This document shows positions 8,016-60,925 of a stretch of DNA of 64,000 bases, piece after piece. The position numbers were made by a program, and so were the translations under genes. The notes below the pieces were generated by a model. It worked only from the letters and a program-made list of their open reading frames with translations. It searched no databases and was not told the DNA's origin. How positions within the stretch are numbered: the first letter of the stretch is position 1; each line of letters begins with the position of its first letter. The stretch spans positions 1 through 64,000 of the forward strand of contig JAAFIU010000002.1 in assembly GCA_013298805.1 (NCBI GenBank), written 5' to 3'. The stretch is from Cytophagales bacterium. Lineage in GTDB: Bacteria; Bacteroidota; Bacteroidia; Cytophagales; Spirosomataceae.

Positions 8016-8732
8016 CTAATATTCCTGACTGATTGGGTGAATCATCAATTCGTCGATAACCACGTGCTTGGGTGATTCCAAAATATAGGCAATGACATCC
8101 GCCATATTTTGTGCAGACAAATACTTTTCTTGGTGTGGGTCGCCAGCCGAACGATTGTGGAAAAACGTATCCACCAGTCCAGAATACACCACCGAAACTT
8201 TGATACCATCTTTTCGAACCTCTTTTCTGAGTGCCATCGAGAAAGCATCTTGAGCGTATTTTGATGAACAATATAACGAACCACCATCAAAAACACGCTT
8301 GGCAACGTCTGAGGCAACATTAATAATATGCCCTGCTCCTGCCGACTTCATGTATGGAATAGCTTCACGACAAAAAAGGAATGTGCCTTTCACGTTAGTA
8401 TCGTAAATAGAATCCCAATCTTCGGTAGAAATTTCGGTGGCTTGTTTGAAAACCCCAAAACCTGCATTATTGATTAAGGCATCAATTTGCCCGAAAGCAC
8501 TAACGGTTTCAGCAATTATGTGCTTAACAAAACTCTCATCGGCAACTGAACCCACAAAAATTTCCGCTTTTCCGCCAATCACCTCAATTTCAGACTTCAA
8601 GCTCATTAATTCTATTTCGCTACGAGCTACTAAACTTACATTTGCACCTTTTTCGGCTAAAGTTAAAGCCAATGCTCTACCAATTCCTTTACTCGCTCCC
8701 GTAATTAGTACGGTTTTATCTTTTAATGACAT
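8016..8732 (-). CDS. SDR-family oxidoreductase
   Basis: TGASKGIGRALA, NNAG, YCSSKYA catalytic motif. Confidence 0.9.
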   Translation of the reverse strand: MSLKDKTVLITGASKGIGRALALTLAEKGANVSLVARSEIELMSLKSEIEVIGGKAEIFVGSVADESFVKHIIAETVSAFGQIDALINNAGFGVFKQATEISTEDWDSIYDTNVKGTFLFCREAIPYMKSAGAGHIINVASDVAKRVFDGGSLYCSSKYAQDAFSMALRKEVRKDGIKVSVVYSGLVDTFFHNRSAGDPHQEKYLSAQNMADVIAYILESPKHVVIDELMIHPISQEY

Positions 8733-8765
8733 CTTTGTTTATTTATAAATGAGTTTGAATTGTTT

Positions 8766-8773
8766 CAAAAGTA
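8766..8773 (-). promoter_or_regulatory. Candidate Bacteroidota -7 box for SDR gene
   Basis: TACTTTTG on minus strand, matching TAnnTTTG, about 34 nt upstream of ATG. Confidence 0.45.
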
Positions 8774-8791
8774 AGGAGAAATAATGAACAT

Positions 8792-8818
8792 AAAAAAAGC
8801 CAAGAAAATCTCTTGGCT
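8792..8818 (-). terminator. Intrinsic terminator of GH1 gene
   Basis: Minus-strand agccaaga-N5-tcttggct stem followed by TTTTTTT. Confidence 0.75.
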
Positions 8819-26200: not shown

Positions 26201-26764
26201 ATGGCTGAAATAAAAGAAAAAATAATTTTAGGGGTTGACCCTGGAACTCGTTTTATGGGTTACGGCGTGATTTTAACGCAAGGCGATTCTATGAAAGTGT
26301 TGCAATATGGAGTCATCAACGTTAGCAAATATACAACGCAAGGAATGAAATTAAAGAAAATTTACGAGCGTATTATTGGTATCATTGAAGAATTTTTGCC
26401 CGATGAGATGGCAATTGAAGCTCCATTTTTTGGCGTAAATGTGCAATCTATGTTGAAATTGGGCAGGGCTCAGGGTGTAGTAATGGCGGCAGCACTTTCT
26501 CGTGAAATTCCAATTGTCGAGTATTCGCCCAAAACAGTAAAACAATCGGTTACGGGCAATGGAAATGCCTCAAAAGAGCAGGTAGCAGCGATGCTCGATA
26601 ATCTTTTGAAAATGAAATTAGATGCCAAAATGTTTGATGCAACGGATGCCTTGGGCATTGCAGTTTGTCATCATTTTCACGGAACGAGTATTATGGCTAC
26701 CATGAAAGGAACGAAAAAAGGGTGGGGTGCTTTTGTGAATGAAAATCCTGAGAGGATAAAATGA
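26201..26764 (+). CDS. ruvC: Holliday junction endodeoxyribonuclease RuvC
   Basis: IILGVDPGTRFMGYGVI, AIEAPFFGVNVQSMLKLGRAQGV, DATDALGIAVCHH; start reassigned to MAEIKEK at 26201. Confidence 0.93.
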   Translation: MAEIKEKIILGVDPGTRFMGYGVILTQGDSMKVLQYGVINVSKYTTQGMKLKKIYERIIGIIEEFLPDEMAIEAPFFGVNVQSMLKLGRAQGVVMAAALSREIPIVEYSPKTVKQSVTGNGNASKEQVAAMLDNLLKMKLDAKMFDATDALGIAVCHHFHGTSIMATMKGTKKGWGAFVNENPERIK

Positions 26765-26811
26765 GAAAAGAGTTAGGGGTTAAGAATTATAAGTTATGAG
26801 TTGAGAAGTTA
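26762..26811. repeat. Period-7 degenerate array (locus C, left arm)
   Basis: TGAGAAA AGAGTTA GGGGTTA AGAATTA TAAGTTA TGAGTTG AGAAGTTA, beginning at the ruvC stop codon. Confidence 0.7.
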
Positions 26812-26859
26812 ATGTGGTTTACAGTTTGCTATGTACTACAATTAAACTAAAAATTTAGA

Positions 26860-28113
26860 ATGAATATTAGACAACGTACATACAAGTTTCTTCTCCTATC
26901 GATTGCTGTTAACTGTTTACTGATAATTGCTAACTGTCACGGTCAATTATCTAATAAACAAGGTATTAGCACTATTTCTATTCATCCTTCTGGTACATTG
27001 TTCACTTTTGGCTTGCCTCAATCTTCTACCATCCCAAGTGGATTTCAGCAAAGTGTTTTTAGTTATACTCCTTTCCCATTTACCGTTTTTCCAGTAAATA
27101 CAAGTATAAACCGACAAGGGAAAACTGAATTTTCTGGCTTAATTGGCTCGTTTGATTTAGGTTTGAATGTTTCTAAACTATTGAAAAATGACCGTATTTT
27201 CAGATGTGAAGCAGGTGTTTATTATGCTTGTGTACCCCATAGCTATGCAATTGGGAACGATTATCAATTTTTATTGAATAATAAAACCGCAAGTATTTGG
27301 CAAAATACTATTAGTTATTCTGGGCTTTCTGCAAGCCTAACTTACACCTCAAAATCACTTGGGAGAAGAACCTGGGGTGAAGCCAGAAATTATGCTCAAT
27401 TCGGAGTTAGAACAATGAATTATTTGGACAAATCGGCTGAAAATCAAGAAGATTGGGTATTTAATGGCAAAGGGTTTAAAATTCAAAGTGAAGTAATTAG
27501 CAGAAACGCTTTCTTGTTTTTTCTCGAACTTGGCAAAACTTATTGGCGAAGAGTTGATGATATGCGTTCTTTAGATATGGGAATTCGTGTTGGTATTCCA
27601 ACCAATAGTTTTGTTTCTAACACTTTTACGGGTTACAACAATAATCAAGCAACTGGAGCCAATAATATTCTTGAAAATGGGGCATATTTTGGCTTTCAAA
27701 TGTCATATCATTTGCCTTTAGTTCAACTCCAAAAAGAAAAACCAAAAATTAAAAAAGCAGATAGAATTTACTGCGAAATGGAACGCAAAGTTACCGTAAA
27801 ACATCGTTACAGAATCACAGAAAATGAACTGAAAATTCAACTTTACGACCATGAAAATGAAGATGAAGACGAAGTTTCAGTCTGTTTTAATGGTCAATAT
27901 ATCCTTGAAAAATATACACTTACACGGAGACCTAAAATTATTACACTCAAATTTCTCCCAAATCAACAAAATATATTGACTGTATTTGCTCATAATACAG
28001 GTAAAGAAGGAGCAAATACCAGTGCTATTCGGTTTGTATTGAGTGGGAAAACAGAGGAAATTATTTTGTATGCCGATAAAAAAGAAGCGGAAGGGATTGA
28101 GTTTTTGTATTGA
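26860..28113 (+). CDS. Secreted hypothetical protein
   Basis: Signal peptide MNIRQRTYKFLLLSIAVNCLLIIANCHG; no confident family. Confidence 0.7.
   Translation: MNIRQRTYKFLLLSIAVNCLLIIANCHGQLSNKQGISTISIHPSGTLFTFGLPQSSTIPSGFQQSVFSYTPFPFTVFPVNTSINRQGKTEFSGLIGSFDLGLNVSKLLKNDRIFRCEAGVYYACVPHSYAIGNDYQFLLNNKTASIWQNTISYSGLSASLTYTSKSLGRRTWGEARNYAQFGVRTMNYLDKSAENQEDWVFNGKGFKIQSEVISRNAFLFFLELGKTYWRRVDDMRSLDMGIRVGIPTNSFVSNTFTGYNNNQATGANNILENGAYFGFQMSYHLPLVQLQKEKPKIKKADRIYCEMERKVTVKHRYRITENELKIQLYDHENEDEDEVSVCFNGQYILEKYTLTRRPKIITLKFLPNQQNILTVFAHNTGKEGANTSAIRFVLSGKTEEIILYADKKEAEGIEFLY
26903..26937. repeat. Period-7 array inside signal-peptide coding sequence (locus C, right arm)
   Basis: TTGCTGT TAACTGT TTACTGA TAATTGC TAACTGT; complement resembles left arm (ACAGTTA ~ AGAGTTA). 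Confidence 0.65.
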
Positions 28114-59668: not shown

Positions 59669-60754
59669 TTAAATTGACTTTACGTAACTACCAAGCCATT
59701 TAATTTCAGAAGCGTGTTTTGCCATAATTTCTTGAACACTTTCGTCTAAAAAATACCCATCAAATTCCATCAAGAACCAAAAATTGAACTGGTCGCCTTC
59801 TTTCACGGGGCGACTTTCTATTTTTAGTAAGTTGATACCTCTACTCTCAAATTCTTGTAAAAACTTCATTAGTGTACCGGGTTTACCATCTTCTGGTAAA
59901 CGAGCAATAATTGTCGTTTTATCATTATCACTTTTTTGATTGATAAAATCCTTCCCAATTATAAAAAAGCGAGTACGGTTTTGAGCCGAATCCTGAATAT
60001 TATCAAACAAAATAGGTACGTCAAATAATTTAGCAGCAATGTGCGAACAAATAGCAGCCGAACTTGGGTCATGTGCAGCTAATCTTGCAGCTTTTGAAGT
60101 AGAGTCAACTTCTATAAAAAAGTCTTCTTCTTTACCCGCAAAATAATCGGTCAAAAAATTCTCACACTGTCCAAAAGCAATGTCTTTTGAATAAATTTTC
60201 TTGATGTCTGATAGTTTTTCAGCCTTCGTCGCAAAAGTAAAATGCACCGAAATAGCGACCTCCGCAACAATTTTCAAATCCGTTTCATTAAGCAAATCTA
60301 TGGTCTCTTTGACAATTCCTTCCAAATTGTTCTCAATCGGTACAACGCCAAATCTTGCCCGACCTGTATCTATGCTTTCAAACACTGAACGAATATTCGG
60401 AAGGGCTAAGTAATCGCTCATTGCCCCAAATCTACTCTCAGCAGCTTGATGCGTAAAACTGCCTTCTGGCCCTAAATAAGCAATTCTTTCAGGTAATTCA
60501 AGGTTTCTTGAAACGGCAAAAATTTCTAAATAAATTGCTTCAATCGCCGCACGGTTTAGTAATCCATTATTCATAGAAGCTAATCTATCAACAATTTGCT
60601 TTTCTCTTTCGGGACGATAGATTACAGTTTGTGTACTTTTTTTAAATTCACCAACTTGTTTTACAACTTCCATTCGCTGGTTCAGAATTTCCAGCATTTG
60701 GTTGTCAAGGGAATCAATCTGATTTCTTAGTTCTTCGAGGGACATGATTTTCAT
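59669..60754 (-). CDS. pheA: Bifunctional chorismate mutase/prephenate dehydratase
   Basis: N-terminal AroQ-type chorismate mutase; LGPEGSFTHQAA; ESRPVKEGDQFNFWFLMEFDG ACT domain. Confidence 0.93.
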   Translation of the reverse strand: MKIMSLEELRNQIDSLDNQMLEILNQRMEVVKQVGEFKKSTQTVIYRPEREKQIVDRLASMNNGLLNRAAIEAIYLEIFAVSRNLELPERIAYLGPEGSFTHQAAESRFGAMSDYLALPNIRSVFESIDTGRARFGVVPIENNLEGIVKETIDLLNETDLKIVAEVAISVHFTFATKAEKLSDIKKIYSKDIAFGQCENFLTDYFAGKEEDFFIEVDSTSKAARLAAHDPSSAAICSHIAAKLFDVPILFDNIQDSAQNRTRFFIIGKDFINQKSDNDKTTIIARLPEDGKPGTLMKFLQEFESRGINLLKIESRPVKEGDQFNFWFLMEFDGYFLDESVQEIMAKHASEIKWLGSYVKSI

Positions 60755-60757
60755 TAA

Positions 60758-60922
60758 ACAGCTATCAGTTAGCAGTAAACAGTAATGAGTAAACAGTTAT
60801 GAGTAAACAGCAACCAGTTATCAGTAAATTCATATCGGTCAGATAACTATTTACTGCTTAACTGCTAACTGCTTAACTGCTAACTGCTAACTGCTAACTG
60901 CTAACTGCTAACCGCCAACTGC
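60758..60922. repeat. Period-7 tandem array, inverted pair (locus F)
   Basis: Left 60758-60827: ten heptamers of type (A/T)CAGTAA; right 60844-60922: eleven units, seven exact TAACTGC with five consecutive at 60874-60908; fills the pheA-parE gap. Confidence 0.93.
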
Positions 60923-60925
60923 CAT

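Follow-up and report, generated by a model that had tools for sequence, protein, structure and literature searches.

Tandem repeats of a TAACTGA heptamer have been described as direct repeats in Beggiatoaceae, Cyanobacteria and five Bacteroidetes (MacGregor 2015, PMC4679880). Forward repeats of this type give stop codons in all three frames, and it was therefore argued that they lie at the ends of open reading frames (ORFs) only. Those of the Beggiatoaceae were proposed to be the binding site of a translational regulator, and in BOGUAY one inverted set was found among 170 (PMC4679880). A signal peptide derived from a MITE has been predicted in Yersinia (Delihas 2007); the element concerned, RU-2, is a 168-bp MITE-like sequence that has a single open frame and for which one exported gene is highlighted. 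The Rickettsia palindromic elements are intergenic repeats that also occur in frame within conserved proteins, as palindromes of 105-146 bp inserted in protein genes (Ogata 2000, reviewed in PMC2229807).

The array considered here lies in a 64,000-nt stretch of DNA (the window) from a draft Arcicella assembly (Cytophagales; G000, 461 contigs) whose nearest named relative is A. aurantiaca. The isolate A. aurantiaca DSM 22214 (G007) carries the array signal as well. The parts of the locus, together with an intergenic element used for comparison, are as follows.

26201..26764, forward strand: ruvC (Pfam RuvC, 1.5e-44), the upstream neighbour
26771..26802, reverse strand: weak opposite-facing heptamer array AGTTAGGGGTTAAGAATTATAAGTTATGAGTT, score 13 (near threshold), 6 nt past the ruvC stop
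26860..28113, forward strand: 417-aa ORF, predicted to form a helix and then an all-beta body resembling outer-membrane barrels of the OmpW/OprG type
26860..26943, forward strand: predicted signal peptide MNIRQRTYKFLLLSIAVNCLLIIANCHG, followed by QLSNKQG, the conserved beginning of the mature protein; its own start is kept in G007 and G005
26903..26937, forward strand: coding heptamer array TTGCTGT TAACTGT TTACTGA TAATTGC TAACTGT, hydrophobic core of the N-terminal signal
60748..60827, reverse strand: left arm of the intergenic inverted heptamer element of the comparison locus, score 47
60874..60921, forward strand: right arm of the same element, with TAACTGC units, score 37

The original prediction, that five heptamers at 26903-26937 encode most of the hydrophobic core of a signal peptide, proved exact in position. 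The array lies 43-78 nt past the start codon, ends 6 nt before the mature start and is translated as ...(I)AVNCLLIIANC.... Tandem Repeats Finder calls a period-7 array at 26906-26937, and a pattern of three units, allowing at most 3 mismatches, has 13 matches in the window (0.05 expected from shuffles), confined to two loci, 26903-26936 and 60752-60921. The heptamer score of the array is 24; synonymous recodings of the same 29 residues have a mean of 8.6 and a maximum of 21.5, and none of 20,000 scored 24. The codons, and not the residues alone, follow the heptamer repeat. A leucine-rich signal might resemble the heptamer by coincidence, given that AT-rich Leu and Ile codons look like TTA..TT. 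units and that weak resemblances exist in G004 and G006. This account is at odds with the recoding null, with the 5' ends of 288 genes in the array-free relative G001, which score 9 at best, and with the occurrence of the same arrays in several gene families, and we give it practically no credence.

Sec signal peptides have a basic n-region, an uncharged hydrophobic core and small residues at -1 and -3. The predicted signal MNIRQRTYKFLLLSIAVNCLLIIANCHG shows each of these properties: the n-region MNIRQRTYK is basic, the core is uncharged with a 13-aa hydropathy of 2.8, within the range of ordinary signal peptides, and small residues lie near the mature junction (C at -3 and G at -1, assuming cleavage before Q). 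It differs from the usual pattern in that the repeat forces Asn, Tyr, Thr and Cys into array cores. From these features, the N-terminus of the ORF probably works as a signal peptide. A start codon downstream of the array was rejected, as no in-frame ATG, GTG or TTG occurs between 26860 and the mature start at 26944; two relatives share the start region M-N/K-I-R, and QLSNKQG is kept in all orthologues. The body of the 417-aa protein has no Pfam or NCBIfam match. Its AlphaFold model, of medium confidence (mean pLDDT 66), places a helix at residues 2-26 followed by beta structure, with OprG/OmpW outer-membrane barrels as the best fold matches (E about 2e-4). Such a predicted fold would agree, though not strongly, with a need for export.

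Because seven is coprime to three, a forward array yields the same peptide cycle in every frame, namely LLxTxNC, which is hydrophobic and uncharged if the in-frame TAA is changed. TTACTGT thus gives LLFTVYC and TTACTGC gives LLLTAYC, and a pure TAACTGN array adds a stop, with a TAA in every frame. The opposite strand encodes polar cycles such as SVISYQL. The earlier claim of hydrophobicity in all three frames is borne out under that proviso about TAA. The sole in-frame unit at 26903-26937 is TTACTGA, not TAACTGA, which is why the ORF stays open. Among the units of the collected signals, TAA occurs in frame in 0 of 20 and out of frame in 18 of 44. An in-frame TAA would end the ORF, hence its absence; its retention out of frame, at a share somewhat below that of arrays at large (about half or more), shows that signal cores are repeat units and not simply leucine codons. 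The 13-aa hydropathy maxima of array cores (1.9-2.8) and plain signals (2.0-3.5) overlap.

These arrays belong to a family that is abundant in part of the genus. A four-unit pattern matches 262 times in G000 (once for the reversed control), 421 times in G007, 210 in G004 and 119 in G002; in the array-poor genomes the counts are 15 (G006), 13 (G005), 9 (G003) and 0 (G001). The units are TAACTGN, with TTACTGN and TCACTGN variants. We analyzed a 1.59-Mb sample of G007, the first 0.8 Mb of which was picked regardless of arrays and the rest of which is mostly large contigs known to hold some. In this sample 96 of 123 arrays are intergenic, and neighbouring arrays form 34 outward pairs, 1 inward pair and 12 same-way pairs; the G000 stretches contain 28 outward inverted pairs. 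Median distances to the flanking gene edges are 3 and 3.5 nt in all four gene orientations, and arms adjoin stop codons as closely as start codons. The heptamer element is a spacer filler between genes. Since its arms point outwards, genes that start beside it read the hydrophobic direction.

At the signal locus, the weak array at 26771-26802 may be a degenerate left arm, belonging to an inverted pair that faces outwards; its position fits the left-arm anatomy seen genome-wide, and the stretch also matches arrays of ATAACTC units on other contigs. The spacer after ruvC (window 26764-26806) is similar to a sister family of heptamers, TAACTCA (reverse TGAGTTA), which makes up long pure arrays on contigs C123 and C363 of G000. 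The ruvC gene probably starts at ATG 26201, the listed ORF opening at TTG 26093, and it lies immediately upstream of the orthologous ORF in same-genus loci too. RNA of the intergenic element at 60745-60925, which includes both arms, folds far better than shuffles (z -4.2). RNA of 26765-26945, covering the pair at the signal locus, folds no better than shuffles (z +1.55), and no RNA-structure role is therefore claimed there.

An array near a start codon could be kept as a nucleic-acid element, for instance as the site of a translational regulator, with signal coding as a by-product. In many genes for non-exported proteins the right arm stops about 1-9 nt short of the start codon, which is also what MacGregor describes for BOGUAY (PMC4679880), and the G005 copy of the signal keeps its heptamer pattern with synonymous C-to-T changes. 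Against this, arms abut stops as closely as starts in all four orientations, a pattern more in keeping with a spacer filler than with regulation at start codons. Moreover, closely related species have array-free orthologues of PorD, LptE and the 417-aa ORF, and the arrays of exported genes are part of the coding sequence, here well past the start codon. We regard this account as unlikely.

Orthologues of the 417-aa ORF were found in six other Arcicella genomes. Array-coded cores occur at the same register in G007 and G005 (IANCLLLTINC and VNCLLIIANC). Before the same mature start, the signals are of the ordinary kind in G001, in more distant relatives and in G006, where a weak trace is seen, and the orthologues of G004 and G003 carry decayed array traces at most. 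The possibility that orthologues without arrays would carry the same IAVNCLLIIANC did not materialize. A tree built from four concatenated proteins joins G000 and G007 as sisters and puts G005 in the other main group. The array is therefore either ancestral, with partial decay, or the product of several gains, and the common register speaks for the former.

The original prediction had allowed for either direction of change, from intergenic repeat to signal or the reverse. The first part stands: the hundreds of mostly intergenic copies, the plain signals of array-free relatives and the recurrence described below all point to recruitment of the repeat, a direction that comparison with outgroup sequences makes well supported. 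The reverse, in which the dispersed repeats would descend from the coding sequence of a signal peptide, has nothing in its favour beyond the shared sequence. Hundreds of intergenic matches stand against some 20 coding arrays extrapolated for a genome, arrays of a similar type exist in G075, of another family, and in Beggiatoaceae and Cyanobacteria (PMC4679880), and array-free orthologues bear unrelated signals; we consider this direction vanishingly improbable.

A search for further cases, as the original prediction had proposed, used an idealised array translation as the query; matches were read individually and orthologues compared. Array-coded signal cores were found in PorD (G000, G007, G002 and G004), in LptE (G000, G007, G004, G006 and G005), in a T9SS-tailed subtilase (G000, G007, G004, G005 and G003), in a TonB receptor and a TPR lipoprotein (both G007), in a BamG-family protein (G005) and in a DUF4271 protein (G004); PorZ of G004 has a weak one. 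These cases extend the recruitment to at least seven gene families besides that of the 417-aa ORF. Three candidates were set aside: the array-coded stretch at L200 of G005 precedes a likelier start, MSKTIVYILLS, and the arrays at L203 of G000 and L207 of G007 lie deep inside frames that resemble antisense ORFs.

PorD provides the clearest contrast. The mature start QELNC is common to all orthologues and the n-region is MKKY or MKKH in most. The four array-rich species have an array core and the four array-poor species a plain core (one-sided p 0.014). The array version reads MKKYQ...IFLLFTAYCLLITGNCIKA|QELNC or takes a related form, and array-poor G006 has MKKYKLLLLLSLFIAHSSWLHA|QELNC; n-region and mature protein are the same and the core alone is exchanged. 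In G000 and G007 the array version is seven residues longer, equal to three units. Together with the other recurrences, this contrast indicates that repeat DNA took over existing signal-peptide cores and not the reverse. G004 has the same array signal as G000, G007 and G002, yet nests among plain-signal species, a conflict with the species tree for which recombination or repeated loss must be invoked.

Among start-proximal arrays in the G007 sample, five of six at exported-protein genes enter the coding region, versus 0 of 21 at others (p 7e-5). Genes were grouped by inspection of protein identities because a hydropathy filter is partly circular, the array itself being hydrophobic. Reverse arms are open frames too, which makes the start codons of several genes in the comparison uncertain. 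In non-exported genes, forward arrays stop at the start codon, many about 1-9 nt before it. The five signal-peptide arrays in this 27% of the G007 genome suggest about 20 per genome.

A repeat unit not divisible by three, near the 5' end of a gene for an exported product, also raises phase variation, in which gain or loss of a 7-nt unit would shift the frame and switch the protein. A phase-variable contingency repeat is expected to have near-identical units; those of the array are imperfect, and slippage should accordingly be infrequent. Every orthologue seen keeps the frame, and the one clear length difference, nine units in the subtilase of G004 versus six in G007, amounts to 21 nt and leaves it intact. 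LptE, BamG and PorD, as envelope-biogenesis proteins, are unlikely switches. We judge phase variation very unlikely.

The explanation that we consider probable is that Arcicella heptamer arrays were recruited repeatedly as signal-peptide cores and passively retained. Outward arms fill the spacers, and a gene starting beside an element reads the TAACTGN direction. Once the in-frame TAA is lost, every frame gives the L-L-x-T-x-N/Y-C cycle, hydrophobic and free of basic residues, and a Sec signal core needs little beyond this. The start codon would be the limit of an arm beside a cytosolic gene, whereas beside a gene for an exported protein the arm could run through the signal core up to the first constrained mature residue. 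The 417-aa outer-membrane-like protein beside ruvC would be one such event, with at least seven other families acquiring arrays separately. Judging from their sequences, the array N-termini probably act as signal peptides; retention would be largely passive, as exaptation or tolerance, and the arrays presumably spread or expand by slippage or recombination.

We speculate further, and only tentatively, that coding and intergenic arrays form one population in which exchange or seeding by recombination or expansion makes the outward-facing element a standing, frame-independent source of new signal peptides in the genus, so that signals would turn over with the repeat type of the species; this extension is possible but doubtful. 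The signal copy of G005 consists of TAATTG units, and in that genome TAATTG has 40 matches and TAACTG 13 (the mismatch limits of the two counts differ slightly), which hints at such a single population. CCTACTG arrays have 3 matches in G005, two of them being the subtilase signal, with no large intergenic counterpart, and this scarcity leaves concerted evolution only suggestive. Strict tracking of units by species was rejected: TAATTG in G005 fits it, whereas the CTACTGC-type signal without a large intergenic counterpart does not.

The Arcicella arrays resemble the TAACTGA family in their tandem units with a TAACTG(A) core, found in many sets per genome, mostly intergenic and often running forward towards start codons, with long arrays also known in some Bacteroidetes; the copy at 26903-26937 is a coding exception. 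They differ in forming outward inverted pairs rather than direct repeats without inverted partners, in a free seventh base with common TTA and TCA variants, and in the degenerate forward arrays that serve as signal cores inside ORFs. They are a variant organisation of the TAACTGA type, and strict membership is not claimed. Their arms vary in length, without the fixed length of about 100-170 bp and the defined ends of MITEs and coding palindromic repeats. The RU-2 precedent means that the principle of a repeat-derived signal peptide was already known. Unlike RU-2, the Arcicella case concerns a non-triplet tandem array, readable in any frame, that forms the hydrophobic core in several conserved envelope families of one genus. 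We found no earlier description of signal peptides from tandem heptamers in the openly accessible literature, which misses most subscription journals; as far as that literature shows, the any-frame, non-triplet version recurring in several conserved envelope families has not been described. It provides a repeated natural case of non-coding repeat DNA turned coding, for the simple reason that a seven-base unit gives the same hydrophobic cycle in each frame, and a prediction follows on where array coding can and cannot occur. The proteins concerned include conserved parts of envelope biogenesis and secretion (PorD, LptE, the BamG family), and the published view that forward heptamer repeats touch gene ends only is revised.

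Elsewhere in the G007 sample, a forward array lies within a conserved gene once, in a hemC-like gene (locus L249, 16522-16613), where an inverted heptamer pair is read in frame (LATTVNSEQLAVNSEVTAENSSNLLTDNCSLITVTGG) and looks like an insertion into an otherwise conserved product. This pair is the only Arcicella case comparable to the Rickettsia palindromic elements. A reverse-orientation array occurs at a near-identical position in G000 (L138, 2043-2087) and G007 (L312, 10966-11010), inside a 1803-bp gene and about 285 nt from its end, which suggests that an array has been conserved as coding sequence within the body of a protein. Further afield, G075, from another family of the order, has 198 TAACTGN-pattern matches, often as close inverted pairs, and its matches in the signal-type protein search mostly contain stops. 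The reversed control pattern (GTCAATN units) is abundant in G013 (94) and G064 (13), so other heptamer families exist in this order, and TAAGCC-like heptamers follow ruvC in G058. Finally, directly upstream of the subtilase gene of G007 (L254, about 8488-8809) lies an 81-bp minisatellite of four copies, each of which carries a piece of array and signal-peptide coding sequence.
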